Below, piece after piece: positions 20,301 to 64,000 of a stretch of 64,000 bases of DNA. A model generated the notes under the pieces. The model searched no databases. It saw only the letters and a program-made list of their open reading frames with translations, and was not told where the DNA came from. This DNA is from Tribonema minus (lineage: Eukaryota > Sar > Xanthophyceae > Tribonematales > Tribonemataceae). The DNA lies in assembly GCA_017506865.1 (NCBI GenBank), contig JAFCMP010000518.1, positions 124,001-188,000 of the forward strand, read 5' to 3'. Numbering within the stretch: the stretch's first letter is position 1; every line of letters starts with the position of its first letter. The position numbers and the translations under genes are program-made.

Positions 20301-21640
20301 TGGCTGTATGCGGTCGAATGCCTGGTTGAAGATGGTCCGGATGACTTTCTCAGATGGAGGAGCGAGGCATCCCCCATCCTCTAAGGTGTGCCATGGCATG
20401 AACGATGACGGCGCAACGGTGTCCGCCATCCTCTGTATGAATGCCTCATACCGGAGCTTTCCCTCGCTCTGTCGTCCTCGCGCCAGCGCCTCCAGCACGC
20501 GTTGCTGATGACTGGTGGGATGATCGTAGTTGTCGAGCAGGAACCGCGCCACCTCCACCGCGTAACCCACTTTGCTGCTGCAGTGCAAGGACTTGAAGCG
20601 TGCGCGGATTTCCCGTGGCAGGACCCGCATGTAGCTGTCAAGGTGTGGACTGAACTGGCGCGCTTTGCCTGCTGCTGCGCTTGACACCGTCGCTGGCCGT
20701 GCATTGCCATTGTTGCCCTGCGCCCTGGGTGCTGGCATGGGCTGCAGGGTTTGCTGGTCCACTGGCTGGTCCATGACCTCATCTGCAACTGCCGGAGCCG
20801 ATGCTGCTGCGTCGCCTTCCATCGGTGGACCCTTGCACTTCGGATTAGTGCAATTGTAGATGGACGTGACGCTCACACGAACTCCTGTAAGTGTGTGATA
20901 AGCGCGGCAGTGCTGCTTGTTGAACCCGCAAACGTGGACGTGCTTGTTGCTGCAGCACCATGGACATGGTAGCTGGACTCCGACCACATCGCCATGCGGT
21001 CCTCTGACATGGCATCTGCTGTGCAGCATGAGCTCCTTGCGGAAAACGATGGCTGGGTCCAGATATTCAAACTCCACGATGTGGAGTTAAGAACAGGTCC
21101 AGAACAGCTTGCGCTGTTGCCGCCGACATGGCGTTGTTGCTGTCAGCAAGCAGCACGCATCAGAGGCAGCGTAGATTGAGCGTACTCAAATTTCAAATTG
21201 GCCAGAGCATCACTTGAAATGAGCACAATGCAATCACTGTCACACTCATATTCACCAGGAGTATGCTAACAGGCCTCAGGCGATGCTGCATAAATATGTA
21301 TTTTCCACGGATTGGCAGGATGTGTGCACAAGTAGCGTCAATCATCTTTGCACCCACCTGCTCAGCGTTGCCTGATTGATGATGGCGGTGGCGTGCGTTT
21401 CCAACACCTTTCCCCGATAGATCGAGCCATTGAAGTGCTGAGCAAGGAGTTCGTCCAGCGACACGTCCTGTGAGCTTGTGGCATCTGCACTGCGCTTGTA
21501 AGGGCACGAGGCAACTCTGACAAAATCTGATTCTCTGCGGCGCATCAGGAGTTGTTTCTGCTGCACTGGACTGAGCAGCGTTGCGGGACGTGGAAGCGGC
21601 AGGGGCACCAAGAACGCAGGAGGTTGGTGGGCATCTTGGT
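17391..21640 (-). pseudogene. DDE transposase copy 2, 5'-truncated at fusion junction
   Basis: Mirror exons are 21139-19677, 18878-18440, 18132-18007 and 17930-17391. The main 467-aa frame (21077-19674) is intact and equal in length to copy 1. The first exon is cut at 21640, where sequence matching position 7983 of copy 1 is joined to exon 3 of copy 3. This copy therefore has no transposon end of its own and lacks its N-terminus. The frame break near the hairpin at exon 2 (21069-21087) is present here too. Confidence 0.82.
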
Positions 21641-29677: not shown

Positions 29678-30661
29678 CTCAGTGGTTGGAGTTCAGGCGG
29701 GCGGCAGGGTTGCCAGATTTTATAGTTGTGTCGCTCTGCGACGCGGAAAAGGCCGCTCAAGTAGGGGATTTCATGGCACAGCTGTTTCACCAGCGTGAAA
29801 ATCGAGCCAACACGATACGGTCGAAGGTGTCAGCACTCAACTACTTCCACAAGATGTGGGGGGGGGGTGAGTTGCCGGTGAAGCATTTTCATGTGAGAGC
29901 AGTGTCGGAGGGCATTGCACGACGGCAGAGTATCAGTGGCACAAATGTGCGCCCCTTCCGTCGGGGCCTGACGTGGCACCAGATATGTCAGGGTAGGCAG
30001 ATGAGTCAGTGCGCACGGTTGTGGGCAACGGCTCCGGGGGGTAGGTTGGTATGGTATGGCCTAGCGCTTTCATACCTGTGGATGCTGCGAGCCTCTGAAA
30101 TATGGGGGGAGGATGCCACAGGGGCGGTGCGGCCGGATTACGGTTTGACCAGGGGTAGCTTAACATTTAGGAAAGGGGGGGCTCCCCTGCCGCGAGAGAG
30201 GTACAGGGAAGCCGAAGTGGTGGTGGTACGTATGGACTTGTGGTGGTGGTACACTTCAAAGCGTCCAAAGGGGATCAGAAAAGGGTGGGGGCAGGATAGC
30301 AAGGTCAGGGGCATGTGCGCAGGTCATGATCGAATTATTGTGCCTTTTTCCTGGTTTATCAGACACGGCGCCTCTGATGGCCTACGCGCGGGGGGCAGCA
30401 TTCAGTGTGGTCAGGCGTCGAGAGTCTGACGCAACACGCATTGTGCGACAGATGGTGTCAATTGTGGGGGGTAATGGCCCACCTGCAGAGTATGCTCTCC
30501 ATTCAGGGCGAGTGGGGGGGGTCACCGCGATGATGATAGCAGGCAGGTCTGATACTGAAAGCATGAAAGCGGGGAGGTGGAAGTCGGCAGTGTTCAGAAC
30601 CTACATCAGGCTTTCGCCGGAGATGGAGAATGCCTCCTCCGCACTCGTGCCGGGTAGTTGA
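29653..30661 (+). CDS. tyrosine recombinase of DIRS-like element, one frame break
   Basis: The frame opens at an ATG overlapping the end of the RNase H frame by about 25 bases. LSYLWMLRASEIW supplies the first catalytic Arg. After a frame change near 30355, ALHSGRVGG supplies the His-x-x-Arg box and GRW the next position, and FRTYIRL holds the candidate nucleophilic Tyr near the end. Recombinases of this kind join the circular DNA intermediate to the chromosome without target-site duplication. The motif set is complete apart from the frame change. Confidence 0.82.
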
Positions 30662-43600: not shown

Positions 43601-44269
43601 ATGCGCTGCCGCGCGAGGTCGAGCGGCGTGTTGCCGTGCGAGTCGCTCGCGCCCGCCTCCGCGCCGCCGTCGAGGAGCGCGCGCGCGGCGCGCAGCGCGC
43701 CGTGGTACGCCGCCGCGTGCAGCGCCGTCTCGCCCGTCTGGCGGCGGTAGTTGTGCAGGCCGCTGTAGCGCAGCAGCGACAGCAGCGCCGCGAAGCTCTC
43801 CTCCTTGCCGTCCGACGTGAACGCCTCGTAGATGGCGCGGTCCACGCGCCCCTGCAGCGTGTGCAGCTTGGGCCCCGCGCCGCCGCCGTCGCCGCCGCCG
43901 CCGCCGCTGCCCCCATCCTTCTTGCTGCGGCCCGGCCGCCACGCGTCGCCGGCAATCTCCGGCTTGGGCTTACGCAGTATGCCGCGCCCCTTGCCGTCGC
44001 CGCCTTCCCCCTTCCCCTTCGCAGCAGCGGCGGCGGCGGCGCCGGCGGGCGGGCTCCAGCGGCCGCTATCGTCGCTTGACTCGCGGCACGCGGGCCCGAA
44101 CCGCCCCTCGCGATAGCAGCGCACGCACTGCGAGCACGCGCCGCAGATGGGTACGTGCGCGCGCTCGCACAGCCCGCAGCCCGGCGAGCTGGCGTTGCGG
44201 TAGCGGAAGCGGTGCTCGCCGCACGCGCCCGCCGCGCGCTGCTCCGCGGAGATGTCCCAGTCCTTCCCC

Positions 44270-44303
<34 letters not shown>

Positions 44304-47300
44304 TGCTGCCGCCGCCGCCGCCGTCCGCGGCAGCCGCGCTGGCCAGCTCGTTCGAGCCGAGCTTGAGCTCCTCGAGCCGCTTCTCCGCCATGACGAGTTC
44401 GTGCGGCTTGGTGTTCGCGTCGATGTACGCAACCACGACGCGCGCCGAGAAGCGCGGCGGCCCCCTGCGGCCGCCGCCGCCGCCGCTGCGCGCTGCCGCC
44501 GCGGCCGCCGCCGCGGCCGCCGCAGATGACTGCGTGGCCGCGAGCGACGGCGGCGCGCCCTCATCGTCGACGATCTCGAGACCGTTCTCGCGGGCGTCAG
44601 CGCTCAGCGCATCATCGCCATCACCGTTGGCCTTGGCGTCATTGTCCACCTCCATTGCGCTGTCGCCGTCGCCCCTGTCGCTGCGCGCAGGGGAGTGCGC
44701 AGGCTCTGGCAGCAGGTCCTTGTGTGCGGGGGCATGGGGGGTGGGGATCTGAATGGGGGGTGGCTGCATAGTAGGGGGCTGCATAGCAGGGGGCTGTGCA
44801 GGGGGTTGAGCGGGAGGGTGAGAAGGGGGCCGGGCCGGGGGTTGAGCAGGGGGCTGTGGAGGGGGCTGCAGAGGCGGCTGGGGAGGGGGCTGCAGAGGGG
44901 GTTGAGGAGGGGGCGGCAGAGAGGGCTGAGCAGGGAGCTGCATGGTCGGCGACTCCCTCTTGGGCTGAAGCGCCGCCGTAGTGACAAGGGGCTGCTTGGC
45001 CTGCGGCGTTGGCGCGTGCAGCGCAAACCGCTCGTACTTGAGGGGCGCTCGCTGCTCCTCAATCATCCTGATGAGCTCTGCCGTGGGCTCCATCTTGGTG
45101 TCCTCCACCTTGGGCTCTGGTTTGACGGCCGCCGCAGTCTGCTGCGCTGCCGCCGCCGCCGCCGCCTGCTTCGCTGCCGCCGCATGCTGTGCCGCCGCCG
45201 CATGCTGCGCTGCCGCCACGCGCTGCGCTGCCGCAGCCTGCTGCGCTGCCGCCGCCTGCTGCGCTGCCGCAGCGTGCTGCGCCGCCGCCGCATGCTGCGC
45301 CGCCGCCGCGCGCTGCGCCGCCGCCACCTGCTGCGCTGCCGCCGCCGCTGCTGCGGAGATCATCGGCAGCTGCATGAACGGCGGCGGCGCGAGCTGACCC
45401 GGCAGCAGCGAGCGCGCCGCGAGCGGTCCGCTGACCACGATGTGCGGTGGCAGCATGGGCGGCGGCAGCAGCGGCGGCAGCGGCGGCGGCGTCGCCGTCT
45501 GCTGCAGCGCTGACGCCGCATGAAGGGGCTGCGCCTGCGGCACGCTCATGACCCGCATGAAAGGGGGCATGGGAGGGGGGGCGAGGGGGGGGGCGGCGGG
45601 GGGCCACGTGGGGAGGGCCGCCGCCGGTGCCGCTGCTGGCGGCGGCGTCGCAGCAGCAGGAGGCGCCGCAGTGGGCGCGGCGACTTGCGTGGCGCGGGTG
45701 ATGGGCTTCCACTTCTGGTGCGTCGCGTTGAGGAGGCGCCGCAGCAGGTCGGTCTGCGGGACTTCCTCGCTGTATGAGGAAAAGGGGCGGGGCAGGGGGG
45801 GATTAAGTTAGGGGTTAGAGTGAGGTAGGGTTGAAGTTGTAGGATTTCAAGTTTGAGTTGGAGGAAGGTCGGTCAGCGCGACTTGCTCGCTGCATGCACG
45901 GACAAGGGGGGGCAGGGGGGGGGGGTTGAGTTAGGGTTAGATGGAGGGAGGATTGAAGGAGTAGGGTTTGAAGTTGGAGTTACAAGCAGGGCGGTCAGCG
46001 CGACGTGATCGCTGCAAGGAAGGGGGGGGGAGGGCCAGGGGGGGTGATTAAGTTGGGATTGGATTGCAGGAGGGTTGAAGTTGTGGGGTTTGAGGTTTAA
46101 GTTACAGTCAGCACCGCGTTCATCAGACTGATTTAGGGACTGAGACATTGCCCATGTATAGAGCAGCTGATGCCTGACATCTATTCGCCCCCTCACACTT
46201 ATCAGATACGCATACATTCATCGGGACGTAAGGTTGAAACCTGCAATACAACACGATTCACGGATCTATTTGTCAGGGTCGCTGCAGGACAGGTGAGCCC
46301 TCAAAGTACTCACTTTACTGTTTCTTGTGGACGAGTTTGTGTACTCATCTGTGCAGAAACCAGCAATGCGGCATAAAATCTACTTGCCTAATCAAATAGT
46401 CATTCACTCGCTTACTCACTCGACCTGCGTCGCACCACAGAGCAGAACTCGAGTTTGCTCTGATCTCCGCTCTCTGCAGCAGTGCTCACAGCACCCTGAC
46501 GCCTGGTGGCTCATTGCAACGTCAGGGTTGACAAATACGGTCCGTTCTACGTCATGCATATGGTAGAGACGTATACCGCCCTGAGAACTATACATACGCA
46601 GTATACGTTTGCCGCAAACTTCAACTTTAACTTCACATTTAACTTCATGTTGAACTTCCTCCCGCGGTGCGTGAGAGCTGTGTGATGTTGCCGAGCATGG
46701 TTTTGCTTGTCGAGCACAAGCTGCGCGCTTCATGTTGTATATGAATGCTCATTGCAGGCATTGTACCACCATCTGCGCTCTGTATCCCGGCTGCGCTGCC
46801 CTTGCGGGTACTGCTTGCCTGCACCGTCCGTATATTCGTCCTGGCGGGATTCATACGTACGCTCATACGGCTATACATATACGGTTCATACGGCGTATGC
46901 CGTATATGTCAACCCTGTGCAACGTCACATTATGAGCTAAGCGATCATCTTGAACTTCAAGTTCTCAACTACTGCACTCTTCGAGTTCGTCTTGCTGATT
47001 CAGCTTGACTTCGAGCTGCCTCTAGTCTCAGCGCTGTAGAACACGCAGCATAAGTACTCAATGACTCAAAGACTCACTCAGACTTGACATTGACGACTCT
47101 TCAGCCCTGTAGGTCAAACGGCATCAGTGCTCAACAACTTTGAAGCTCACCCAGATTTGACGTTGACAGCGGACCGAAACTCAAGCTGCCTCTGGTCCCA
47201 GCCCTCTAGAACACACGGCATAAGCCTTCAACGACTTGCGGACTCACCCAGACTTGGCCTCGACAGGGGGGCGGAACTCGAGCTGCCTCTGATCCCAGCC

Positions 47301-50300
47301 TCTAAAACACACGGCATGAGCACTCAATGACTCAATGACTCGATGACTCACCCAGACTTGGCCTTGCCGACGGAGCGGAACTCAAGCTGCCGCTGGTCCC
47401 AGCCCTCGAGCACGCGCAGCATCGCGTCGAGTTGCGTGAACGCCTTGCCCACGACCTTCGTGTCCGCCTCCAGAAGGCCGCCGACATCGGGCTCTAGCTC
47501 TTCCGAAAGCGCCTCGATGATGGCGCGCAGCTGCGGCGCGCACACGCGCACGCTGAGGCCCGGGCCGAACTTTACGAACTGCGCCGCGCCGCACACGATC
47601 TTGTGCGCCTGCGCGATGGCCGCAATGACGGCGGCGCCGCCCGACAGGCGCGACATGAGGCCCTGCGGAGGAAGGGGAACGGCGCAGAGGAACGGCGCGA
47701 GAAGGGTGAGAGAATGGTTCGCGGAATGGTCTTTGAAGGGCGGGAATGGCGCGGAAACGGCGCGGGAAGGGTGAGAGAACGGTTCGCGGAATGGTCTTTA
47801 GGGGGGCAACAGAACGGTGAGAGAACGGCGATGCGGGGGGGGTATGTAGGGTGTTATGGTTCAATGAAACACGCGTGGCCAGCGGCTGCAGTTTACGTGG
47901 CCGTTCGCATCTTGAAATTAGTGATAAAGTGACATTGAGTTTGAAGATGGACCCCCCATTGAAAGCGACGTTCAGATCTGCAGCGGCAGCGCGCCGCGAG
48001 TCGCTTTGAGCTGGCATCAGGAACCCCGCGCCTCAGGATGGCTTGGCGCACGCTATGCCCAACATGGCTGATGTGTGTTGTGCTGAGAGCATCCTAGTGA
48101 GCTCTGTTACATTTGAGCGCTGTCGCATTCAACAAGCTGCGCTGTCTGAGTACAAGCATCGCACCACAAGTGCTGAGTGCCGATGCAGCGCTCCGCAATG
48201 GGTCGCGCTCAGCATGGGGCAGTGCTCAGGAACCGGCAGCGCGGACGCCAAACACACCACTACAGACCAGTACCACCCTGATCATTTCAAAGGGTGTTGC
48301 TGCAAAGGGGTGTCCCCTCCCAGCACTCCATGATCACATACGACGACAGTGCCGTCGATCTGGGGCTGGTGTCGGCTTCAAGTTGCACTTGCAGCAAGAG
48401 TTACAAACAGCGCCAAGCGCAACGCCGATTGCAGCATGCGCACGGAAGCCAGCTTATCAACGACGCCCTACAAGCCATGATGTTACTTGAGTGCGCATGC
48501 CGCACCATATGACCGTCCAAGCTGGTGTGCGCCCAAGTGTTGTCGATACAAGGCATCTCGGTACAGGTCGAACAGGTACCGAAATGCCCTAAGTCGACAA
48601 CACCTGGTACTCAGATGCGCTGTATCGACAACACCTGGTGGCACAGTGGCAACGCTCAGACAGTGCAGTGGCAGCGCTCAGCATACGCTGACAAAGCCAC
48701 CACTAACAACCTCAGTGCTCACACAGCAGCCCATACAAGGAAGCGGAGAGGCACCGTGACATTGACAGCGCAAGCAGCTGTCCGGTACGCCTGTGGCGCG
48801 AGCAAGAACGCCTGCACGCTGCAAAGGACAGATGCCAGACCCTTCGTGCACGGTACGCAGCCGCGAGTTGGCATGGCTGAGCACTGGCGCTTGCATGCTG
48901 GCCCAACAGCGCTCAATACTGCAGCGCATCTACTGTACCCCGCTGTGCTCACGTACTACTTAGCTGATGCTGGACCGACAGAGCAGCGCATGCACGCTTT
49001 GCGTCTAAACGCGCCACATCTGGCGCAGCGCTCTCACATTGAGCTCTGATACACGCTCAACAAAGACGTTGAACCTGGCAACTTTAACCCTAGGCGCAAC
49101 ACGCCGCATCGTCACGGTGCTAGCCTTTAACACGCCCCCTGTTCCAGAGCGGAGGCGGACACAGCTGTCATGCCTGGCTTGAGTGTCACCACCGACAACG
49201 CATGTGTGTGGCCGCAGGCTTTGCTTGAGCGTCGCCACGACTGGCAACAACACTGATGTGTCCTAAGGCTGGCTGCACAGCGGCAGGCTCAGCATGGACA
49301 GCGTTCGCAAAGAGGATGACAGCCTAATGTGGTCGCTGCATCAACACTGCAGCCAGTAACATCGCGCCACTCAATACTGGCAGGATGCATACATATATGA
49401 GGAGCAAGTCTGAGCACAATCCTGCACCCCATGGAGGCCGCTTGATAGGCGACTGGTTGAAGATGCTTCAGCTTCTTGAACGGTGGGACGATCGCCACAA
49501 CGTCAAGCGGCGCATTGAAGCACAACCGATTCTGCTCCTTGCACACCGTCCCCCATCTCCGCAGTTGAAGCCACGTCAGGGCCTCCTAAGCAGAACGACG
49601 CGTCGTCGGTTCAAATGGCCTTGTCTGCCAAGCCCTGCGCACATGCGCATAATGTGCACTAGCAGGCGCTCAAGGGCAGCCATCAGTGGCTGCTGTGCCG
49701 TGCCTGGAACACCCGAAATGGCGGCATGCCTGAGCGCTGGGGCTTGCTCTCCTGAAGCACACTAATAGACATGCATTACTGAGCGCTGATGCTGTGTCTG
49801 AGCGTTGCTTTCAGCATCTGAGCACTGCTGCATCCGCAGCCCCCCTGCATGTGCTGACCACCCCACGGTGGTCTGCATGCTGAGCACTGAGTGCCGGCGC
49901 TACTGAGCGCTGCTGCTGTACAGGGCAGCGCCAAGGCGTCATGATGGCGATGCCGGCAACAGATGGAGAACAACCACAGTGTAGCCCCACCCCCAACCCC
50001 CCTCTGCACCCACCCACCCCAGGCATCACATGCCCGCAAAGCATCAATTGCCTTGAACTTCACAGTTGAAGTGATGCGGACAGCAGCTGGCATCACGGCA
50101 AACTGGCCGAAATTGCACGCGTGCCGTTGCCTGGCACAGATCATGCTGCAGCCGAGGCAGGCGCAGAATGCAGCTTGCTGCTGCAAGCAACGTAGCAACA
50201 CACTTCAAATGCCGCAGCGCAGGAAAAAAGAGGCTCGCGTTGCCTCAACGACTTGCAGTAATGCCAACTTCAAATGCAGAGAGCACCACTGTTGATGGGC

Positions 50301-52817
50301 GTGATTGCGTGGAATGCAATATAGGGATCGTGCTGGGGAATTTACAGCACACTGCTCACAATCACAAATGTGGAAGTCTTGCTCCAGTCTTGACATATCT
50401 TACTTCAATTGGGGAGTTGAACAACAAGCGCTCAAACACGCATGCAGCTCAGCGCAGTGGCTGCACAAATTTGGTCGCCACCGCTTCTCAACACTGCAAG
50501 CGTTGCAAGTGCACCAGTGACGACGGCAATGAGTGCTGCGCAGCGTCCTGTGCACATTGTGTCAGTGCAGCAGAATATATACGTTCAAGTCAGACATGAA
50601 GAGCAAATTGCAGCCAGACAGCATGGCTCAGCAATGGCAATGCTGGCCGAGCGTCATGTAGCCAGCAGGGATGAAGTCGTTGCTGATGTTAGCAGCGTGC
50701 AAGTGCTGAAGCGTTACCAAACACACACATCACTGAACATCACTGCTTGAGTGTACATATTGATTACAGTCTCTTGACATCTGTTTCCTGGGCTTGCACA
50801 GTTCCAGTACACCACAAGAAGACACTAAGACTGAGCTTGCATTGTTTCCGCCACACACAAAAATCAAGACAGTGGCGTGGTCAGAGTCCATAGGTTGAAG
50901 TTGCAGAGAGATTGATGAGTGACACGCCCTGACGAGGTCAACAGTGCTCTCACTCGTGCAATGTGATTACATGGTGTCAAAACAGCAGCATGTGCTGCGG
51001 TACGACTCAACTTCAACGCTTAAAAAATGATATGCGGCACGCACCTCTAGCTCGCAGGTGGTGCTGAACAGCAAGTCCATGATGGTAGAGCGGCCGAGAA
51101 CTTCAAGTAGCTCGGCAGATTCGCCCTGGACAGACTTCAAACGGTAGTCGGCGTCAGTCCACGAGTCCATCTTCTTCACCTTCAACAGACGCTCCACCCT
51201 GTGCAAAACCACATGCCAGGCACGCACGAAAGCAAACAGCAAAGTGGGTCAGCTGCTGCGCCGTTGAATCAATATCGGGCACATGATGGGTTTCATGAAA
51301 TTAGGCGATCAGCTGTGCCTTGACACAAGCGGGCTATGCTACAACTGTGACAAGATATTGCAGCTGCGATCACAGTAGAATATGGCGGTTGCGTGCCAAG
51401 CAGAGGCCAATACTGACCTAAGGCTTATGGTAGGCGAGCACAAACAGGTGATCGCGTAGCCAGGCGAAAGGTGACTTGCACATGAAGTTGATGCAAAAAA
51501 GGGACAAGACTTAGGAGAGCGCCGTGAGAACCTTGAACTCAGGATGAACAGCAGTTCCAACTCTTTGTCACCAGAAAATCCCAGTTCACTGTCCAAAGAA
51601 CCGGTCGACTGAGGCGTGCACGTGTGGTGAGAGTGAACTGAGATGTTTGTGTAGCAGGAAATTATCCGACACTGATTGCGATGCAGAACTCCGCTTGAAA
51701 TATGCACAGAACTGTTTCAAAGTGACAGGAAGGCTACACTCATGAATAGCAAGGTCGTATACTAGCAGAACGCCAAGCGGCAAAGCGAATTGAGGGCAGG
51801 TGCCATGCAGGGGAAACCACAACACAAATATGAAAACACCAACACAAACATGGGATGGCTGGAGCAGCATACCAATACCAGATAGCAACTGCTTCTACAC
51901 TATTGAATACACCTCATGTGTTGCGTGCTAGACACGATGATTTGCCCACGGTGCTCAAGCAAGCGCCTTCGAACCCAAAACCGTACAAGGACTAGGTATC
52001 CATGTACACACATGATGTAGCATGATGGGTGCAAACACTGCAGAGTGTGCAAGGGTTTCACCTAGCATTGACTCCCAGAGACCATGCTCTGCCTGAGCAC
52101 CGTGCTCTGCCTGAGCACTGTGTCACATACTGAGTTAGTATGCATGGCCAGGGTGTCAGATACTGACTGCGCGCCACAACTGCATTACTCAAATCATGGG
52201 TGCAAACAACCGCTTGGGTGGCCTCGCTGTGGCTAGGAGCCCAAAATTGAGCAGTCACCACAAGACGGCGTGCCAGCTGATTCGCAGTGAAGCCAGATAT
52301 TGAAGTACGCGCTTCAGCAAATGGCTTTCATTCGAAGCAGGGCAACAACGTTTTTCTGCGGAAGACCGTTGCATGAAGAATGGTTTCCGAAGCAACAGGC
52401 TGCACCAGCTCTCCTGTCGCTTGAAGGTAAAGCTCACCTCATCAAGAGCGGTTTGGGAATGCCAAGAACCCTGCCGGATAACATGATCCCGCCGGGTAGC
52501 CCCACTAGAAGAGCCGTGGGCCCTCCGCCCGTCTGCAGAAGCTTAGTAAGCACGTTCTCTTGGTATGCGCTGGCATGGCAGGTGATATCGTCAACGGAAA
52601 CGACAAGGTGTCTGTCATCACCCAGGCGATCGGTCATCAGTAGCAGCCCGCTGCACACAATCATGGCCAGGCGCTCGGCGGGCGTTCTCAAATCAGCGTC
52701 TTTGCGCCTCTCAGCTCTCTCAGCTGCCTCGTCCTCGGTGGGGGGCAGCTCCCCCTCCTCCAGGTCATCGTCGACAGCGACGAGTGCGGAGTGAGGGCGC
52801 TTGCGCCCTGACGACAT
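40606..52817 (-). CDS. 1912-aa ankyrin-repeat, Cys-rich, low-complexity protein (5 exons)
   Basis: Minus-strand exons are 52817-52438, 51198-51045, 47662-47352, 45769-41891 and 41620-40606. They total 5739 bases with every junction in phase. Residues 1-350 are well structured and conserved-looking (PAERLAMIVCSGLLLMTD, ESAELLEVLGRSTIMDLLFS, LLRRLLNATHQKWKPITR), but I do not recognise the family. An Ala-Gln repeat, Pro-rich repeats and an Ala/Gly stretch follow. A Cys-rich module sits near residues 795-843 (CGLCERAHVPICGACSQC), and ankyrin-type repeats near 955-1005 (TGETALHAAAYHGALRAARA, then HGNTPLDLARQRM). Long Gln/Pro runs follow, then an Arg-Ser-Gly tail ending in a basic segment. Nuclear regulation or scaffolding is plausible but inferred. 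The start ATG is the first after an upstream stop-free leader, 326 bp from the UTP14 start. Confidence 0.82.
45120..45352. repeat. 18-bp coding minisatellite, Ala-Ala-Ala-Ala-Gln-His type
   Basis: About ten copies of a six-residue unit AAAAQ(H/Q/R) are encoded on the minus strand inside exon 4 of the ankyrin gene. The unit is a multiple of three, so the frame holds. A helical, coiled-coil-like rod is possible. Confidence 0.85.
45747..46110. repeat. three tandem copies (about 121 bp) of ankyrin-gene exon 4 acceptor border
   Basis: The unit begins with the first 23 bases of exon 4 plus its acceptor (45747-45782) and recurs at about 45867 and 45990. Read on the minus strand, each copy keeps an AG acceptor (tacag, tgcag, tgcag) followed by a cga-starting exon-like edge. 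Using either upstream acceptor would run into a stop codon in the copy examined (45867). Confidence 0.85.
46985..47420. repeat. tandem echoes of ankyrin-gene exon 3 donor border
   Basis: The true exon 3 end and donor (plus-strand cacccagacttggcc at 47349) recur at 47245, 47148 and, more decayed, 47075, with a further vestige near 46990-47050. Each copy carries about 70 bases of exon-like sequence (gaactcaagctgcctctggt class) and keeps a GTGAG donor on the minus strand. Confidence 0.87.
47694..47802. repeat. 63-bp tandem duplication beside ankyrin-gene exon 3
   Basis: Two copies of ggcgcg-gaagggtgagagaa, each followed by ggttcgcggaatggtcttt, lie about 63 bases apart in intron 2, just upstream of the exon 3 acceptor in gene direction. 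Confidence 0.8.
48538..48634. repeat. inverted repeat, about 23-bp stem, in ankyrin-gene intron 2
   Basis: gtgttgtcgataca at 48538 faces its complement tgtatcgacaacac near 48621. Flanking cagatgc/gcatctc bases extend the stem. A second direct copy of tcgacaacacctggt lies at 48593. A cruciform or hairpin in intron RNA is possible. Confidence 0.75.
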
Positions 52818-53143
52818 CCTGGAGTTCAAGCTAACGTTTGCTCTTGCCTTGTTGTGTGTGTTGTGTCGGCCCCCTAAACCACCAGATGAGGCGTCCAGAT
52901 AAGCGGAAAAACAGCGTACCCTCTCTCCGCGTGCAATGGAGAGGGGTGGATAACAGCCAAGCCACTGTTGTGCGCGCGTAGACAGCCTGGCCGTGTAGTC
53001 TGCTCTGCAGGCGCAAGCTCCATCTGGTGTGATGCAGGCGATTAAAACCGGCATTTCGAGTCAGAGTCACAAGTTGTAAGGCGAGTTCCCAAACTCAAGT
53101 TGATGTTCTCGGGCTGTGGCCTCCGCTACTTGGTGGCTGCACC
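52818..53143. promoter_or_regulatory. probable shared divergent promoter of ankyrin gene and UTP14
   Basis: Only 326 bp separate the two divergent ATG codons, so both promoters and 5' leaders must lie here or overlap. No convincing TATA box or initiator was seen. One could expect coordinated expression, but this rests on position alone. Confidence 0.5.
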
Positions 53144-56100
53144 ATGGTGGCAAATAGAGCAGGGGGCGGCGCTTTTCGCGGTCGCCAAAGTGGAGGCAGG
53201 GGCCGAGGGCGCGGCGGCAACGGCTTCAGAGGAAGAGGCAGAGGCAGGGGTGCGGCTGCGGGACGAGGCACAAAGTTGCCTCCGTCGCTTACTGGTGCCA
53301 GCCAGGCTTCCAGTGCTGGTGGAAAGGGTCGCAGCAAGAAACGGGGTGCTGATGCTTCTGAGGACGATGAGCGCAGGCGGAGGATGCGTTACGATGATGA
53401 AGCTGGGGACAGCGATAGAGAGATGAATCCTGAGGACAGCGACTTCGAAGATGAGGTACTTGAGAGCAGGATCAAGTTGCTTAAAGGCTTTTCATGGTCA
53501 TGCAGCAATAATTTGCCAGCAGTCACGTCGCGAATGTGTTGTACAGGGTCACCGAGTCCTCGAGGAACGCAGCGCCCTACTCGAGCTGTGGTGATTTTTA
53601 CTGCATGGTCATCGCTCCGGTTGTCTCTTTCATATGATGGGAAACTGCACGCTGAGGCAATGGCACTCAAATCCAAACTCAATGCTGCCAACACTCACGA
53701 TGATGACCAATTTGCTTAGGTGCCCCATGAAAGGGTCGGTCACTTGAGCATCAATAGTTCTGCTGCATCCAGTGCAGCCATCACTGTTCGATTTGACCTT
53801 ACATGTGAACCAGAAGCACGCTGCAGAAGCGCACATTCTGGTCAATTGCTATTCTGTCAGGCAGTGTTCACACTTTCAGAAGCATGCAATGAGTCAACTA
53901 TGCTGCTTTCCTGCACTGATGGGCCGTTTGATCAAATCACTGCTGGCCATTGCTGCTTCATGAAGTAGTAAGCCTCTGGACCATGGGAAGTAATCTGTTG
54001 TGTGCTGCTGGCGTCACCCATTGAGTCTAAGGGGCTGTGAGCATAAGGTTGCCATTTGTAAGATCACAAGTTGTTGATGACACTACCAGCCTGACGTCAG
54101 TTGCAGCAGATCCCAACTGTTCCTCAAATACAGTGCATGCAGGCTTGAGTTGCGGGTACAAAACATTAGACTTCAACATGAGCAATGCTCAACAACTTTA
54201 AGCGTGAGTTGCCAGCACGGGGCATGTGTGCTGTCTACTTCAACAACGTGGTGATTGCGCACCACTTGAAGTGGCATGACCAGAAAAAGTACCTCTTTTC
54301 CAGCCGCTGGACTGCATATGACATGCGGCAGCACAAATTTTAGTCATGCCCGCTCACCGAGCAGCATTTTTAAGCTTCCCGTTCTCTATTTTTCAGTTAT
54401 TCAAATCAACCCCCATGAACAGTATTACTTTGGCAACTCGATGTTTAATGTCACAGTACTCGTCTGCGCGCCTTGCACGGTTTTGCTGCCGTGGTACTGT
54501 AGGTGATCTGCACTTGTGTACACAAGTGATGCAACATCGTGCCCCAGATCTGGCAGCGGCCGGAGCGAGAAGTGTGAAGTTTTCTGTGAACGCTTGGGCA
54601 CTTGCTTGCGACCAAACTGACGACAGGCGGGAACGCCTTCTTTATACATGCAACGTCATGAGGGGGAAGGGTTATCTTCACGTTTTGCAACTGCGATGGC
54701 TGAATGTCATCCCTTTACCGACTCCTGCTCACATTTCCCTCAGGAAATCGACGAGGATGGCGCCTTCAACAGCAGCGACGAGGAGCGCTACGGCGCGCTG
54801 TTCGCGTCCAAACGCAAGCCCGCAAACAACGCTGACGGCGCTGACGCATCAGGCAGCGGCAGCGACGCAGCGAGCGATGGCGGCGGCGAGAGCGATGATG
54901 ACGGCGATGAAGGCGTGCTGCTCTCGGACATGCTCAACGGTGACACTCCGCCGGCAACAGGGGGGAAGCAGGGGGGCGCGCGGCAGAAGGGAGAGACACG
55001 ACGGCGCGTCGCAAGCGAAGCGGAGGCTGGCGGCGGAAGCGCTGGCGAAAGCGGCAGCGAAAGCGGCGGCGAAAGCGGTGGCGGAAGCGACGACGGAGAC
55101 AGCGACGGCGCGGACAGCGAAGAGGATGGCGGCGGGTGAGTGGCATGTTACCTACGTATCTAGCCTCAACCCTAATTTCAAGGCAAACCCTAGCCTCAAC
55201 CATGAGTAGTGAGTGTTGTTGAGCGTTTGCTTATGTGCAGTTGGGGTGCGCATGAATCTGCAGGCAGTTGTTGTGCTGTTCGGTTCAGGATAAAGTTGAT
55301 GTTTGCGGGGCACATACATGCGGACGCTACAAGCTGAAGCCAGCTCTGTAGCACAGCTGATGAGATCCTACAATGGTGCATGGTCTCTGTGCAGTTGTTG
55401 ACAAGCTGAGCGCTGCTGCCGCTGAGCACTGTCGCTGCAGTCACCTTGACGCAAACCTACCGTTAATGCCCTTGCCCTGATTGCTTGCTGCACAAGCAAG
55501 TGGTAAGGTCACGAACTTTGTGTGGTGGCCTGAGTGCACGAGCACTTGCTAGACCTGACCACGTGTGGTCATCGCCTACTCCTGACCGCAGCTGTTTTGC
55601 AAAAGAAGGAAATTCATCCACATCATGATTATCATTTCAGCCAGTGCAGACTGCACCTCTTCAATGTCGGCGCCGAAGCAACTGTCGTAGTCTGCCACTT
55701 AGGGCTTGGGCTAGGGTTCGTATCATGAACACAGTGCTCAGCAGATGCCACACCGCTGCATTGGTTGACTCACCAATGAGTCCTGAGACGGCGCTCTGTT
55801 GACAACTCGTTGTGACCCCTCAACAGCAACCCATCTGCGAACATGAAGAAATTTGGCCACGTCGATCGCTGGCTAGGTTGTTGATAGCACAAGAGTCTGT
55901 TCCAGCATTATAACCCTAACCCTCATTTAGCATTGGTCAAGTTTGGCACAGCAGGTGCAATGGCAGCATGGCTTGTACACAGTTGTCGTGCCTACAGTAG
56001 CTGTGCCACCGGGTTAGAGGATTGCACTGCTCTACAGCAGGCGGTAATTGGGTGTGCAATTGTGTGTGAAGCACCATATTTGCTCTTTAGAGCAAGTTGT

Positions 56101-59100
56101 TTGTGGTTTTACAATGTCTGCGCATCTGCTTTGCACTTTTCAATTCTGCCGAAAGGATGTTTAGTGCTTGTCACGGGCGCACGTGCTCATTGCCTGTATT
56201 TGGCACAACATACACGACTTGCACACACTTGGCGCGCCTTGGTGGCAGGTCTGTCTACCCTGACTAGCAGTAACCCTAACCTGCTTTCAATGCTACTCCT
56301 GATGTGGGTGCTCCAGGTCTGAGATGGAAGATATGGCCGATGAGCAGCACAGCAAGCTGCTCAAGTTTGTGGACAATCTGCAGGTGCGAGCCGTTGCACT
56401 GTAACAGTTACAGTGTAACAGTGCTGAGAGTTGCTGAGTCCTGCGTCACTTCATGCGCGGGTGACGCGTGTTGTTGGTTTGAATTTTATGAGTTGTTGTT
56501 GCTGTGCCGCACAGCAAGTCATAGAAACTTGTACTTGTGGATAACGTGCAGGCTTGAAAATGGAGAATGTACACGCGTTAACTGTCACTTTGCTTAGCTT
56601 AGCACATAGCATATTGCTGTCTATTATTTCCTCCCAGGGCTGGGTGCCCCCCGCGAGTGACACAGACAGTGGCCATTTGTGCAATGCCTACGCATGCACC
56701 AGGAAGCGCACGGAAATTACAGTACACACACAGCAAGTATTATGGGTACTTTTCAAGGGATCATCGTCAACATGCATTTTGTACTTGGCTGAGCAGGAGT
56801 CGCCACTGCTCTGCCGCTGTTCTTTTGCGGTACAGACATCAATCATATCCGTCTTCAACTTCTGATACTTGAAATACACCCCCTGCGTGTTGCCGGCGGT
56901 TCGAACTGGTATTCTGTAACAGTCGTGCATGCTGGGTGTACGGTCATATGCCTGCATTTCAAGCACACAAGCTGCATCACAACCTCGCTGCTAGTCATAC
57001 CCGGCAACTTGTGACACTCAGCACGCAAAACAAAAAAGTGGCTTGAACCTGCTCTCATATGGACACAATGGCAGTTGTCATCGCTCAGCATCGGCCCACC
57101 TCAACGCCAGCCTGTGCGCCACAACACAAAGCATGCGCGTCCGTTTTTTGTCTAGACTCTCATGTGCTCTTCGTGTCCAAAGCCAGCGTCTTGCATCATG
57201 TTACATGCGCGCATGGCTCTGAAGAATAGTACTTCGAGTATTGAGTATGTAGTATTGTAGTCTTGACTCCGGCAGTGAGTTCGAGTGCGCATCGCTGCAG
57301 CGCTGGGTCAACCAATACATACGGATGGGAATGCTGAGCTTCATATGACATACTTCAAGGACATACCCGCGCCTGACAGCAGCAGTGCTCAGGGTGCAAC
57401 GACCGTTACGCTCTGCCAAAGTGCAGGACAGCGCTGCGGAGAAGGAGCTGCGGCGGCAGGAGCACTTTGAGGCACAGCGATTGAAACCCTCGGAGTTCGG
57501 GGCGCTTTCAGGGGGCGGTCTCACTTCCGGTCTTACGCTGGACACTCTGCTAGGTGAGCACTTGAAGTTGCAGCGGGAAGGAGCGTCAACCTCTTCAGCG
57601 CATGAGGTTGTAGTTGATGCTAGGTGAGCGCTTGAAGTTGCAGAGGGAAGGAGCGTCAACGTTTTCAGCGCATGAGGTTGTAGTTGATGAATCAGTTGCA
57701 GACGGTCTGCCGGATGAACTAGTTGAACTTACAGCATGGAGCATCGCGAGCTTCAGGCCACGGTGAACTTAATCAGCTTATAGAAGGCTGTGCCTTTTTG
57801 TGCCGGTACACGTTGTCTGGATGTCAGGATGAATTGTCGCCGAGGGCCCGACGAAATCCTCTGGCTCACAGCTCTGCGCTTCGTAGGCACGTGACATGAG
57901 CAGTGGCGCTGTAATGGCTGACCACTGACCTTCAGGTGATATGGCAGTTATGAGGCATACACATCGTATGAGTTCGCGTGGACCAACTGCACTGCCGGCG
58001 CGACGCCCCTGCGTTCAGCCATCACACATCACTTGTGTCTTCCCTGCATGAGCTCCCATTTCTTATTGCAAGCGCGCTGGATGGCACGTCACCGCATGCA
58101 GGTGACAAACCTCCGTGAAAAGAACTTCACCTCCACTTACTTCAACTATCGCGTCCGCACGCAACTGGCACCTGCCATTATCCCCTTTCACCAGCCCCGC
58201 GCTCTCACATCTCTCTACGTACGCGTGCATGCTGCCATATCCCCCCCTTCCGCCAGCTTTGGTGCATTCATATTATCCTGTGTATGCACGCGCGTGCCAC
58301 AGGCGAGCTGGATGGGACACAGGGCGTTGCTGCGGTGCGCAAGCAGGTGCAGCGCTTTGCCACATACTTCAAATTTGTTATTACATATACTTCAAATTTG
58401 CAATACAACATTCTGTGTGCCGCAGGCGAGCTGGACGGCACACAGGGCTTCGCTGCGGTGCGCAAGCAGGTGCAGCGCTTTGCCGCCAAGGCGCAGCCGC
58501 CAACGGCGCCGGGCGCCAAGTCGGTGGAGGCGCGCGCGGAGCGTGAGGCCGCGTATCGCGCCGCGCAGGCAGAGGTCACCAAGTGGGACAAAACTGTGCA
58601 GGTGGGCTGTGCACTTTTGCGTTTTCTATTGCAAGCACAACTAGGTGATAATGTAAACGTTCAAGGTGATTATACTTGTCGGCTATATGAGGCTGCGTAT
58701 CATGCCGCGCAGGCGGAGGTCACCAAGTGGGACAAGACTGTACAGGTGGGCTTGCATACATAACTAGATCATGTTTTAATTACTCTGGGTTACAATCAAG
58801 TTCTCTTGACTGCTATTTGAGGCTGCGTATCGCGCCGCGCAGGCAGGGGTCACCAAGTGGAACAAGACTGTACAGGTGGGCTTGCATACATTATTGATAG
58901 GTAGTAATTTATGAAAACGAATCACGAAGTAGGCAGTTATTTATACCCAAAAGCAAGCATCATGCGAGGCCGCGTATCGCGCTGCACAGGCGGAGGTCAC
59001 CAAGTGGGACAAAACTTTGCAGGCGGCTTGCGTACTTACTTTGTCGCTTCAAAGCTACATGTAGTCTATGTACCTAGAGTATGAGAAAGCAAACCTGGCG

Positions 59101-62100
59101 GCAAGATTATCGCTGTGTATTTGATGAGACTGTACAGGTAAGTGAGGGTTGTGTACGTGTATGCACATGCATATACTTTTTCAAATGAATACCTCAACGT
59201 AGGCAGGCAGTGTGTAGTATCGCCCCACACAGAAGGGGGTCAACAAGTTGGACAAATGCGAACAGGTTGGCGTTGTAGACTTGTTCAATTCTTGGCAACA
59301 AGCGACAAGGCAGCTGCACTTACATTGTTGTGTGCGCGATGACAGTGCACCAAAAGTACCTCAGAGCTCATACACAGAATTGTCAAATCAGAAGCGTGTT
59401 CATGCACATTGACTCACACAAAGCATGCATGCATTCATGTTCGCTGGAGCTGCTAAGAAGACACTACAGTACTTACATGCTTGTTTTAAGCTAATACTTC
59501 TAGTCTATCATTCACAAGTAAGCACTTGCGGACAAGCTAAAGCTCATGTCTCAACGTTCGTGCCTTTTAAGTTAATAATAGTCTTTTATCCTCCGGAAGT
59601 AGGCACTTGCTGACACCCTGAAGCTCATGACTTGGCGATCCGCTCTCAAGTACTCAACGAATGTCATGGCTTGCCATCCTGACAGGAGGAGACGCGCGCC
59701 GAGGTACAGGACTTCAGCACCAAGCGCACAGCCGTGCTGTCCAACGCCGACCTCACCGCAAAGTTCAAGCCGCAGGACGGGATGGAGGTACGTACTTCAA
59801 GAAGTATGTACATAGCGCTCAGGACATCGCAACGTCGCACATGGCACTGGCGCATGCGCACAGCAAGCGCATACTTTCACGAACGGATAAATCCGCACCT
59901 CTCTGAATGTTCATTCATGAATTCATTGCGGTGTCGCTCGCCTGGATGTGCCTCAAAGACGAGACTGGTGCAGACACACAACAAGGCACAGTTGCTGCAT
60001 AAATGGCTCTGCGCAGCTGTGGTTTCATCTGTGAATTCATGATTGCAGTTGCTTGCGTGGAACGGTCACATGTGTTCATTTTGCGAAGTCCAGCAAAGCA
60101 GCGCGTTCTTGCTCTTGTTGCTGCTCAATTTACACTCAAGTGGATCAGGTTCTGAGTTACAGTTCTGATGTGTATCTGCATGTGTGGCCAAGGACGGCTC
60201 GACTTTCAATCAAGATAGTCGCTGAGTCATAACGAGTCGAATGTCACACATATCTGCAGACAGGGAGCCACCAAAATTCAGCAAAACATCTGCATTCATC
60301 GCCAAGTTTGGCACCTCTTTCACTCAAGCTTTTGATTGACTCATGACTGTTGCACCCTACACGTGTCTGCAGGCAGAGATAGCGGCGATGCTCACCGGCA
60401 GCGGCAGCGCCGATACAAAGGCGATGGCAGAGGCTGAAGAGAAGTCTTTGGCGGCCAAGCACTTCACTCCTGAAGAGGTATGTATATATGCGCTCGATTC
60501 AGCAGTCAGAGCAGGCAGTATTATACTTCAATGACGCATGTACTTTGGATGTACTTCTATGTCTTTTGGCCTTCTTGGTCCTTCATAGCACTCAAACTTA
60601 GCGCACGTCACGCCACTTCACGTGTGACATCAATTCGAGTGTTGACGTAGCCTCAACTTCACCTTACCAGCTAGCATTCCCAAGCTTGATGTGGAGTTAA
60701 GCTTGGGTCCAGGGTATGGTTGCAAGGTTTTAATGTACAACCAACATTTGTAACCATCCCTTGTCACCTAGAGCTCTACGATCTTTTGATTCGTTTTCAT
60801 TTGTGCTCTCACCCACAGTAACCGCGAGCTGCGCGCCACGTAGAGTTGAGGTTAGGGTAAGGGCTAGGCGTGCGGGCTTGTGCTGGCTCTGTGCCGCGTA
60901 CCGACACCGCTCACGATGGCCTTCTCTTTCGTGCTGCATGCTTCACATGCTTCAAAGCATATCAAACAGTGCTTCCAAGACTAGCGGAGCATGAATGCAG
61001 GAACATGCGCTTGTGACCTTGCTGGTTGTGAGTGCTGTTGTATACAGTGGCGGCGCGGCAGGCGGAGCTGCAGCGCATGGGGGCTTGCGCCCCCTGTGTC
61101 CCCCTTCTAACACATCTCATCATGCTGTGCAACACAATGATGTTCATGGCATTAAACAAGCTATCTCTGACCTCTTTGGGTTGGAAATGCACTACTCACA
61201 CTGTTTCTGACCTCGCCGGACTGTGAATGTTGTTGTTGCTTGCAGGTAGCATCGCGGCAGGCGGAGCTGCAACGCATGCGCGCGTTGCTGTTTTACCACG
61301 AGCGCAAGCGGCACCAAATCAACAAGATCAAGAGCAAGCTCTACCACAAGGTGAGGGGGCCAGCGGCGTGTGAAGTTGAAGTTGAAGTTCAATGAACAGA
61401 CGCCTGTCGCAGCTTGCATGGCCTTATGGCAGCTTGTATCGGCAGAGCTGCTGTCTGTGGGCATCATCTGATGCACTCGCTTGTCATTGTGACCGTGCTT
61501 TGTAATGCTTTGCCAAGTACAACAGCAATCAGCAGTATTGCCAGTGCACATCAGTGATGAAGCGTATACTTCAGGTAAGTATGTATGCATCCATGAGCTT
61601 TCATCCTTCGCACAAATGCATTGGCTTCGAAGTCTGTCAACACTGAGTCAACGTGATGGAGTGTCAGCTCCAATGAAGCTTCATCCGCTCACGCATTGAG
61701 CACAGCACAAAACTTCAAAGTATACTGCAAGCATAATGCGCGCTTAATTCTGGACCTTCGACGTACGGGAAACCAATCCTCATAGCGCCTGCTGCTGGCG
61801 CTTGCAGATGCAAGAAGCAGCGCATACGCAATAGCAAACCGAGCGGACAGGCTGCACAAGACAGATTTGCCCTCTAAAACACATGCATGCATATGCGTGT
61901 GCCAAGTGAAGTGCATACTGTGCCGCACAGATTTTACATCACGGCCGTGTCTGCAGACCCACAAGACAGGGTCTGCTTGTCGATTCAAGTACGTTGCCGC
62001 ACTGACTTTCACATCATGGCTGTGTCTGCAGATGCGCAAGCCAGTTTCTGCTTGCCAAGCTTCTTGATAAATATAAACACTTGTATGGAAACAAATCAAA

Positions 62101-64000
62101 AGACTGTAGAGCTCCAGGTGACAAAGTGTGGTTAGCCGTCAAATTGAATGCCTTACACCAATGTGATTTATGTGAAGTATTCAAATAATTTGTTGCACTC
62201 ATTTCATGTCATGGCGGTGTTTGCAGATCCGCAAGAAGAAGCGCGTGCGCGACAGTGAAGCCGAGCGCGAGAGGCTGCACGAGCTGGACCCGCAGGCAGC
62301 GCAGGAGCAGGAGGAGAGGGAGGCGCGGCAGCGCGCAGAAGAGAGGATGACGCTCCGGCATAAGTGAGTTGAAGTTGACACTCCGACAAGAGACATAAGT
62401 TTCAATGATGTGGAGGCATAAGGGGGTGGAGGGGAGGGAGGCGCGGCAGTGTGCAGAGGAGAGGATGACGCTGCGGCATAAGTGAGTTGAAGTTGACACT
62501 TCGGCAAGAGTCATGAATTGAAGTTGATGATCCTGCAAGAGTCTTGAGTCACCAGCAAGGGTGTCGCTGCGGCATGAGTGAGTCAAAGTTTCAATGATGC
62601 GTAGCGAGTACTGCAGGCCCTGTGAGCAATGTCGTCAACAGGGCGGGCAAGGCAGCAGCGTTCCTCATCCATATCATACTTATTTGCAACACAAACAGAG
62701 TAGGTACATAGATATTTACTGTTATGGTCCCTTTTGCCGTTGCCTGCAGGGACACGAGTCGGTGGGTCAAGGGCGCCATGCGAAGGGGTGCTGCCGACGA
62801 GCACACCAAGGCCGCCGTAACGGAGCAGCTAGCGCTCAGCAAGGAGCTGCGGCAAAGGTGCGTCTCACTGTGCCCTGCTGTAGACAATCCACTACATTCT
62901 GCAGTTGTATGGTGCAAGTGTTGCACACCAAGGCCGTTGTTGCGGGAGCAGCTAGCGCTCAGCAAGGAGCTGCGGCAAAGGTACGTCTCACTCCGCCCTT
63001 CTGCAGACAATGCAGTACAATCTGCAGTCGTATGGTGCAACTGCTACATCAGCAAAGCGCTGCGCAAACTAATGATTTACGCCGCCATTTTGTGACAAAA
63101 AATGCGCTCTTCTTAATGCAGTTGCGTCACTGTACTCCTACTCATCAAGGCTGCTGTCATGGAGTAGGTAGCGCAAGGAGCTGCAGCAAAGATAAGGGCT
63201 AGGGCTAGGGCCAGGGTTAGGGTCAGAACTGTACTAGTGCTTTTGAAGGTAGTCGGAGTAGGGGTTGCTTGATGCCTGTAAGCTGTTCAAGTGATTAGAC
63301 TAGCTGTTAGTCAACGCATTACATAAGCTGTTCGACTCTTCCATGCTGTCATGGGGTAGCTACCGGTTAACATGTGCCCTGGAGCTCTGTAGAATTGCAG
63401 TCATTGTCTGCTCCCAAAGCCCTGCTATCTGCCAAGCGCTGCTGGCAGCGTGTCGTACAGCTCACGAATTTGTTTTGGACACTTGTGTACTGGTCCCTTT
63501 TTCAGGCTGTTGTGAGAGACCTCAATGTTGAAGTACAATCTCCTCTGCCGCGCTCAGTGCAGAGCCATGACCCCTATAACTCCATCGGAGCACGAGTCTT
63601 TTGGCTGCCTCAGATTATCTGTTTTCGTGTCCCCGCACGCAGACAAGAACGCGTTGGGAGCAGCGATGAGTCATCCGATGACGGCGCCGACAGCGATAAT
63701 GGCACAGGTATGTAGGTACATGTATGTCATAGTACATGTATGTGAAAAGATGGGGTATGGTACATGTATGTTAAATGGTGGGGTATATTGGTATACATAT
63801 ACAGCATGATTGTGGCACAGGCATGAAGGTATACGTATGCGTATGCGCGTGTGCTGAAGCCACCAGGTCGCTCCACAACCATGCAAGCGGACGGTATGCT
63901 GAATGGAGCTGACGTACCCTACCCACCAACACTGCTGACGGCCCAGGCAACCAGCGCAAAAGCGGCTGCTGCACGCGGCCGACAGAGCAGCGCTGCTCAG
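53144..64000 (+). CDS. UTP14: U3 snoRNP / small-subunit processome protein UTP14, partial at right edge
   Basis: Exons are 53144-53455, 54744-55135, 56317-56383, 57427-57553, 58426-58601, 59686-59787, 60373-60477, 61246-61350, 62227-62363, 62750-62857 and 63643-63707, all in phase, giving 565 codons so far. UTP14 is a nucleolar protein that works with U3 RNA and the DHR1 helicase in 18S rRNA processing. Family hallmarks, in order, are EIDEDGAFNSSDEERYG, AAYRAAQAEVTKWDKTV, AKFKPQDGME, FTPEE, RQAELQRMRALLFYHERKR followed by KSKLYHK, RMTLRHK, DTSRWVKGA and AVTEQLALSKELRQR. The N-terminus is an unusual RGG/Arg-Gly-rich block (residues 1-50), followed by acidic and Ser/Gly-rich segments. The usual length of 750-900 aa means about the last third is outside. 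The next exon, within or past 63820-64000, is unresolved. Its introns are full of exon-edge duplications. Confidence 0.92.
57551..57694. repeat. 70-bp tandem echo of UTP14 exon 4 donor
   Basis: The donor ctaggtgagc at 57551 recurs at 57621 with the following 60 bases (cttgaagttgcag, ggaaggagcgtcaac, cagcgcatgaggttgtag). Both donors keep GTGAGC. Confidence 0.88.
58303..58490. repeat. duplicated 5' half of UTP14 exon 5 with acceptor
   Basis: The acceptor and exon start (cag then gcgagctgga, then gcggtgcgcaagcaggtgca) occur at 58303 and 58426, 123 bases apart. The copies share about 60 bases and the same phase, and the frame 58284-58763 is open through both. A further vestige may lie at 58064-58085. 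Confidence 0.87.
58545..59263. repeat. serial echoes of UTP14 exon 5 3' half plus donor
   Basis: The real exon end (gaggccgcgtatcgcgccgc to cag, donor gtgggc, ending 58601) is followed by copies at about 58689-58745, 58818-58875 and 58965-59022, and decayed ones at 59125-59136 and 59221-59263. Copies 2 and 3 keep donor gtgggctt. The copy ending 59022 has gcgggc-like gcggct instead. Spacings are about 144, 130 and 147 bases. Confidence 0.9.
61047..61290. repeat. echo of UTP14 exon 8 acceptor border
   Basis: gcggcaggcggagctgcagcgcatg at 61057 (written here as its key words gcggcaggcg and gagctgcagc) matches the true exon 8 start at 61246. A preceding gttgtatacag parallels the real gttgcttgcag acceptor. 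The offset is about 199 bases. Confidence 0.85.
62311..62600. repeat. three tandem echoes of UTP14 exon 9 donor border
   Basis: The exon 9 end (gaggatgacgctccggcata, donor at 62364) recurs at 62482 and again, shortened, at 62578. All three keep a GTGAGT donor and a ttgaagtt- or tcaaagtt-type follow-on. Confidence 0.9.
62805..63195. repeat. tandem echoes of UTP14 exon 10 donor border
   Basis: The exon 10 end (gagcagctagcgctcagcaa to caaag, donor gtgcgt at 62858) recurs 123 bases on (donor gtacgt at 62981) together with 60 bases of intron. A third copy ends at about 63187, where the donor is lost (gataag). A vestige with tgctgtcatggggtagc lies near 63346. Confidence 0.9.
63193..63226. repeat. 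degenerate TTAGGG-like tract in UTP14 intron 10
   Basis: About five units of gggcta/gggtta type run together directly after the third exon 10 echo. It is too short and degenerate to be a telomere. Confidence 0.7.

Follow-up and report, generated by a model that had tools for sequence, protein, structure and literature searches.

Short tandem duplications spanning exon–intron junctions in genes of Tribonema minus

Introduction

Intron growth and the existence of long introns are usually ascribed to transposons and random insertion. A stretch of 64,000 nucleotides from Tribonema minus (the window, C515:124001-188000, in an assembly of 158 Mb and 554 contigs) poses the question of whether introns also lengthen by tandem duplication of DNA that contains their own splice junctions. 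An earlier note on this sequence had claimed that at least seven exon borders of two adjacent genes are crossed by local duplications. We ask here whether junctions are special in this respect, what the duplicated units look like, and whether the arrays reflect the growth of introns or their birth.

Results

Two adjacent genes with junction-crossing duplications

The two genes lie on opposite strands of the window. The exons of the plus-strand gene from 58426 on, when joined, match human UTP14A in structure 7mq8 (E 8.7e-23, query residues 6-244) and a second structure, 6ke6 (E 4.4e-21), and from these matches the gene encodes UTP14, a protein of the small-subunit processome. Because the protein match is unbroken, the real exon end can be told from similar copies nearby. 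For UTP14 exons upstream of 58426 and for the last exon the reading frame is the sole basis, and the exon 4 acceptor (57380) is uncertain. The minus-strand gene, whose borders were likewise placed by reading frame, has a long last exon that encodes ankyrin repeats (Pfam Ank_5, E 2.6e-10).

53144..63707, plus strand: UTP14 gene, 11 exons seen, running past the window end
53144-53455, 54744-55135, 56317-56383, ~57380-57553, 58426-58601, 59686-59787, plus strand: UTP14 exons 1-6
60373-60477, 61246-61350, 62227-62363, 62750-62857, 63643-63707, plus strand: UTP14 exons 7-11
41887..52817, minus strand: ankyrin-repeat gene, extent seen
52436-52817, 51044-51199, 47347-47663, 41887-45769, minus strand: the four ankyrin-gene exons, in frame when joined

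Self-comparison of 40-64 kb gave 17 tandem pairs within 45.5-64 kb, and 16 of these fall in arrays at nine junctions, two more than the minimum that the earlier note had counted. Pairwise alignments with the exon marked place each of the nine junctions listed below inside a duplication, and each copy takes in some of the exon end, the splice site itself and some intron. Donors have their extra copies downstream and acceptors upstream, and the intact copy therefore adjoins the exon.

45743..46106, minus strand: ankyrin last-exon acceptor array, junction 45769; 3 copies, period ~120-122
47011..47422, minus strand: ankyrin exon 3 donor array, junction 47347; 3-4 copies, period ~97-104
57548..57689, plus strand: UTP14 exon 4 donor duplication, junction 57553; 2 copies, period 70, 94% identical, sharp head-to-tail edges
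58294..58484, plus strand: UTP14 exon 5 acceptor duplication, junction 58426; 2 copies, spacing 123, 93% identical
58544..59038, plus strand: UTP14 exon 5 donor array, junction 58601; 4 copies, spacing ~130-150
61011..61288, plus strand: UTP14 exon 8 acceptor duplication, junction 61246; spacing 194
61921..62235, plus strand: UTP14 exon 9 acceptor array, junction 62227; 3 copies
62310..62609, plus strand: UTP14 exon 9 donor array, junction 62363; 2 strong copies (spacing 118, 91% identical) and a short third
62801..63191, plus strand: UTP14 exon 10 donor array, junction 62857; 2 strong copies (spacing 122, 85% identical) and a decayed third
59484..59632, plus strand: non-junction pair, period 81, 75% identical; the sole such self-comparison pair in the introns of both genes

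The long introns 47664-51043, 51200-52435 and 53456-54743 contain no pair in the self-comparison; Tandem Repeats Finder reports short-period arrays in them, at 47690-47782, 48575-48639 and 52081-52122. With 80-nt probes, for which shuffled flanks gave a 99th percentile score of 23 and a maximum of 29, a score of at least 50 was reached at 8 of 27 splice borders, and also at 30/315 intron-interior and 12/147 exon-interior positions, which we read as lying mostly within the same arrays. The last 120 bp of the window (63879-64000) have two further copies, 75-76% identical, at C515:188236-188494, and the junction pattern may continue into the next exon beyond the window.

Duplications concentrate at splice junctions in ten genes

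The sample was extended to ten genes on seven contigs, comprising UTP14, the ankyrin-repeat gene, a P5A-type ATPase gene on contig C160 and seven chaperonin genes (PF00118; L017-L023, seven of ten loci grouped from profile matches). Exon ends of the P5A gene reappear in the introns downstream of them; a segment coding VCLMCGDGANDVGALKQAEV, for example, has five imperfect occurrences at steps of 168 to ~300 bp. Another family, the chlorophyll a/b-binding proteins, has 92 exon-level matches in the assembly, in line with a photosynthetic organism.

We counted clusters of tandem copies in bounded introns, i.e. those flanked by exons that, to the extent this could be judged, encode adjoining stretches of the protein, such that a hidden exon is unlikely. 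In the P5A gene 9 of 23 spliced-alignment exons were left out because they were too short or matched poorly; of its 13 introns, 6 were manually classed as bounded. Chaperonin introns were accepted as bounded when their flanking exons overlapped by at most 30 profile positions or lay at most 7 apart; an overlap of 30 arises in L020, and the first donor of that locus is uncertain. In L019 a chaperonin match at 5818-5928 was left out as an intronic copy of the next match. Chaperonin borders come from profile matches and may be a few codons off, and a tolerance of 15 nt was used.

The earlier note had proposed setting borders against intron interiors, and the comparison comes out clearly for borders. 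In 45 bounded introns of the ten genes, 35 of 38 clusters are at splice junctions (18 at donors, 17 at acceptors, 3 at neither), against 9.8 expected if they were placed uniformly in the introns; none of 50,000 simulations reached 35, the maximum being 22. The junction excess is too strong for chance in the examined genes. Broken down by gene, the clusters at borders number 9/9 in P5A, 7/8 in UTP14 and 2/2 in the ankyrin gene, and 2/3, 2/2, 8/8, 4/5 and 1/1 in chaperonin loci L017, L018, L019, L020 and L023; L021 and L022 (two of the seven chaperonin genes, and two of the ten genes overall) have no cluster in bounded introns. Varying threshold, tolerance and allowed exon overlap over nine settings gave 28/32 to 36/39 at borders, with none of 20,000 simulations reaching the observed count in any setting, and with no tolerance 33 of the 38 clusters remain at borders.

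The share at borders is lower when all annotated introns are included. Border clusters then number 18/26 in P5A (4.6 expected) and 7/8 in UTP14 (1.6 expected); in the ankyrin gene they number 2/3 (0.3 expected), a count of 2 being reached in 626 of 20,000 simulations, and the third cluster lies inside a low-complexity exon. When every cluster of the seven chaperonin loci is counted, annotated or not, 20 of 31 are within 5 nt of an annotated border; of the 11 misses, two come near a border (at 1 and 12 nt), and the others are mostly in stretches of unannotated exons.

Duplications of this kind are distributed strongly unevenly between genes and contigs. At E 1e-6 the number of pairs in random 10-kb pieces of other contigs ranges from 0 to 47, and many pieces are rich in duplications; there are few pairs in regions L002-L004 and none in L012. 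Some young duplications in random regions (for example L011:279-524 and L006:7609-7833) look non-junctional by eye. Positions 1-31 kb of the window, which carry transposon-like open frames, contain no pair with a spacing of 30-1000. Genome-wide action is thus an extrapolation from the ten genes and 11 random regions.

Greater visibility of junction copies would account for only part of the excess

An alternative explanation is that duplications arise uniformly along genes, that exonic ones are purged, and that those at junctions stay recognisable longer because one of their copies is a conserved exon. Such a bias is real, in that the exon parts of the units diverge about half as fast as the intron parts. 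We estimated its size from simulations in which duplications fell uniformly, units had the sizes observed, copies decayed neutrally and the real exon was constrained at codon positions 1 and 2. Detection was the same as for the real data, and there were three settings of 270 introns each, with intron lengths entered approximately. The simulated share of clusters at borders rose to 39-45% (98/220, 110/245 and 88/227, i.e. 0.45, 0.45 and 0.39), whereas the observed share is 92%; the odds are about 14-fold apart, and the binomial probability of at least 35 of 38 is 1.1e-9 at a share of 0.45 and 0.001 even at 0.7. Coding starts and ends present the same step from conserved to unconserved sequence, yet none of the 15 carries a pair (0/9 gene starts and 0/6 ends, with chaperonin ends approximate from the family-profile match). 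The excess also survives the strictest threshold (E 1e-8), with 30/32 clusters at borders at 15 nt tolerance and 28/32 with none. We therefore reject a pure visibility bias, for which 39-45% would be expected in place of 92%, and consider this explanation very unlikely.

The junction lies inside the duplicated unit, and inner copies drift

Across all sequence read, 81 tandem pairs are near-complete; their median period is 128, and for 78 of them it lies within 60-210 bp. The nearest unit takes in 6 to 118 nt of exon (median 45, 43 junctions), an amount uncorrelated with exon length (r = -0.08), and the splice site is therefore not where cutting occurs. Among the youngest pairs, several join head to tail at sharp edges, with an overlap of a few bases at most, as in the duplication at 57548 (a block of 72 for a period of 70). 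In older pairs the alignment often covers less than the full spacing. No motif marks the duplication breakpoints. The heptamer ACTTCAA/TTGAAGT was considered for this role and rejected, as only 1 of 139 breakpoints has it within 10 nt, compared with 2.8% of 320 random places.

The nearest aligned copies at the 43 junctions are 67-98% identical. Between the functional copy and its nearest copy the exon part is 91.2% identical and the intron part 80.0%. Mismatches between the real exon and its copies in UTP14 and the chaperonin genes number 39/606, 34/606 and 78/603 at codon positions 1, 2 and 3 (6.4, 5.6 and 12.9%), and this 1:1:2 pattern fits what is expected if the copies drift freely and constraint acts on the real exon only.

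These patterns bear on the proposal that selection retains junction copies, for example as decoys, recursive sites, poison exons or buffers, and that border duplications are thereby kept more often than others. The earlier note had held that the copies keep the splice dinucleotide. This is true of 38 of 47 aligned junction copies in the P5A, UTP14 and ankyrin genes, but other dinucleotides in the same blocks are kept in 71% of cases on average, such that the aligned copies point to an excess that is at most weak, and strong conservation of splice dinucleotides is rejected. Although that slight excess is in the direction that selection predicts, 9 of the 47 copies lack GT or AG, some arrays are reduced to aligning remnants of only 22-33 nt, and the codon-position pattern is that of copies drifting equally at all positions. 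We regard selective retention as unlikely.

Existing introns appear to grow at their edges

Array spans make up 32% of the bases in bounded introns. Introns with arrays have a median length of 785, compared with 551 for those without, a difference that is not significant (P 0.19).

Arrays of this type could alternatively be left over from the birth of the introns by tandem duplication of an exon piece containing AGGT (the Rogers model), and the units do contain AG|GT-like junctions. That model, however, requires the two ends of an intron to be alike. None of 57 introns has a donor-acceptor score of at least 30 (maximum 26), and the median score is 15 both within the same intron and between different introns, the 99th percentile for different introns being 24. 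Donor and acceptor ends are thus no more alike within introns than between them, and the arrays are therefore not a mark of AGGT birth; moreover, the copies sit inside the intron beside one junction. Birth by AGGT duplication is rejected for these introns, and as a general account of the repeats it strikes us as exceedingly improbable. The claim that the duplications enlarge introns that already existed is supported, both by the share of intron bases in arrays and by the unlikeness of donor and acceptor ends in all 57.

The two arrays searched are local

If the repeats belonged to a dispersed mobile element or introner, the same family should be found in the introns of many genes. Two arrays were searched across the 158 Mb, in a DNA search that skips very common words; one occurs at one place and the other at two, one of which is a redundant contig. 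Both arrays thus originated locally, with matches confined to their own place and the redundant contig, and for these two a dispersed origin is rejected. The redundant contig, C92, which repeats the window from 58811 on, does raise the possibility of an assembly artefact, but the nearest copies at the 43 junctions are too diverged for assembler stutter, and the clusters in bounded introns are spread over six contigs. A mobile-element or assembly origin of the repeats has, in our judgement, almost no chance of being correct.

Discussion

A proposed mutational preference for junction-containing segments

In the ten genes, duplications with units of 60-210 bp are biased to splice junctions, and their inner copies drift. 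On balance we favour the interpretation that short duplications spanning junctions recur through a mutational preference and lengthen introns. Head-to-tail duplications of about 60-210 bp would arise repeatedly on segments containing an exon–intron junction, at donors and acceptors equally, with the junction inside the duplicated segment and not at the cut. Because the protein remains intact, the exon-adjacent splice site must stay in use; this continuity suggests that splicing uses the exon-proximal copy, and the other copy would become intronic and decay neutrally. Arrays of two to about six copies could build up in this way, each addition making the intron longer. Such an apparent preference for the outer of two near-identical splice sites would point to exon definition as the probable mode by which exon-proximal sites are recognised.

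We infer that the junction preference itself is mutational, and a dedicated duplicating mechanism targeted to junctions is putative. Candidate triggers would be breaks or replication stalling tied to co-transcriptional splicing or R-loops, or alternatively the step in base composition or nucleosomes between exon and intron, with healing by short-range duplication that needs little microhomology. A stronger version of this proposal is that splicing, or the chromatin or R-loop state that accompanies it, is mutagenic in this lineage, such that the 60-210 bp around junctions are repeatedly duplicated and intron length is a by-product. We offer this version tentatively, as possible but short of probable; if it is correct, introns consist to a large extent of stacked, fossil copies of their own splice junctions.

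Relation to known systems

Rogers-type intron gain likewise involves a short tandem duplication of DNA with AG|GT, but it makes the donor and acceptor of one intron copies of each other, a relationship seen in none of the 57 introns here. Intronic minisatellites are head-to-tail arrays that grow in a slippage-like manner and decay neutrally. The younger pairs described here are likewise head-to-tail units with sharp edges and the arrays decay neutrally, but the unit is 60-210 bp and located at splice junctions; minisatellites with such an anchoring, at donor and acceptor junctions alike, are not known to us. Work by Gao and Lynch (2009), Zhuo et al. (2007) and Lehmann et al. (2010), all cited in PMC3488318, is said, going by the titles, to concern internal gene duplication and introns derived from tandem arrays. 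It has in common with our observations tandem duplication as a source of intron structure, and by title it is about new introns or intron positions. A 'stutter' feature has reportedly been described in Coccomyxa; the word is absent from the main text of the Coccomyxa genome paper, and a literature search for the feature was also empty. Among the matches listed from openly licensed full texts we found no report of systematic junction-centred duplication, which is weak evidence of novelty.

Two other published systems are similar in particular respects, the potato case being the closest among the matches listed. In the RdRp gene of potato (Ma, Lan and Niu 2016, PMC4974935), a tandem duplication across an intron–exon boundary copied the branch site, the polypyrimidine tract and the 3' splice site. 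That unit spans an exon–intron boundary, as do the units described here, but the potato duplication was a single event that created a new intron, whereas the clusters described here number in the dozens, affect donors as well as acceptors, and lengthen introns with the exon unchanged. Introners copy themselves into many genes, and many are biased toward nucleosome linkers (PMC9860276). They resemble the present case in reshaping introns on a large scale, and their linker bias already connects intron change with chromatin. Introners occupy many genes, however, whereas the two arrays searched here are each local to one junction.

The wider interest is in what appears to be a measurable local process, tied to splice junctions, by which introns are lengthened at their edges. 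It also provides a natural test of exon definition, with near-identical competing splice sites 60-210 bp apart of which the outer is apparently chosen, and the divergence between copies could be used to date the growth of introns. Should the bias prove mutational, splicing would be linked to DNA instability on an evolutionary scale.

Other sequence features

Window positions 58811-64000 correspond to C92:285443-290627; of this stretch 3.9 kb were read, and the two sequences differ there by one mismatch and eight small gaps. To the left no match was found, and the point at which the match breaks falls inside the UTP14 exon 5 donor array. C92 is probably assembly redundancy or a chimera; with so few differences it is uninformative as a second allele that might show copy-number polymorphism.

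The heptamers ACTTCAA/TTGAAGT occur 32 times in 45-64 kb compared with 1.8 expected, and are found in introns of many loci. They are densest within 50 bp of donors and acceptors, for example at window positions 57559-57569 and 62365-62376. Random regions L002-L004 and L012 have a GC content of 0.66-0.68, with one at 0.54, and few or no local duplications, yet the intron heptamer is present in them. Telomere-like runs of TTAGGG/CCCTAA are among the commonest 8-mers of the examined introns (e.g. window 55910-55925 and 63196-63225) and may be traces of break repair.

An element of about 80 bp at window positions 62077-62163 has at least about 40 dispersed places in the assembly and a partial inverted copy at 60751-60804 in a neighbouring intron; it looks like a small non-autonomous element. 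Between 7800 and 25000 the window contains long open frames as direct and inverted near-copies (e.g. 8537-9949 on the plus strand and 19674-21086 on the minus strand), an arrangement that looks like a nested transposon complex. At 28196-30661, judged by reading frames, open frames resembling reverse transcriptase/RNase H are followed by one resembling a tyrosine recombinase, in a DIRS-like order.
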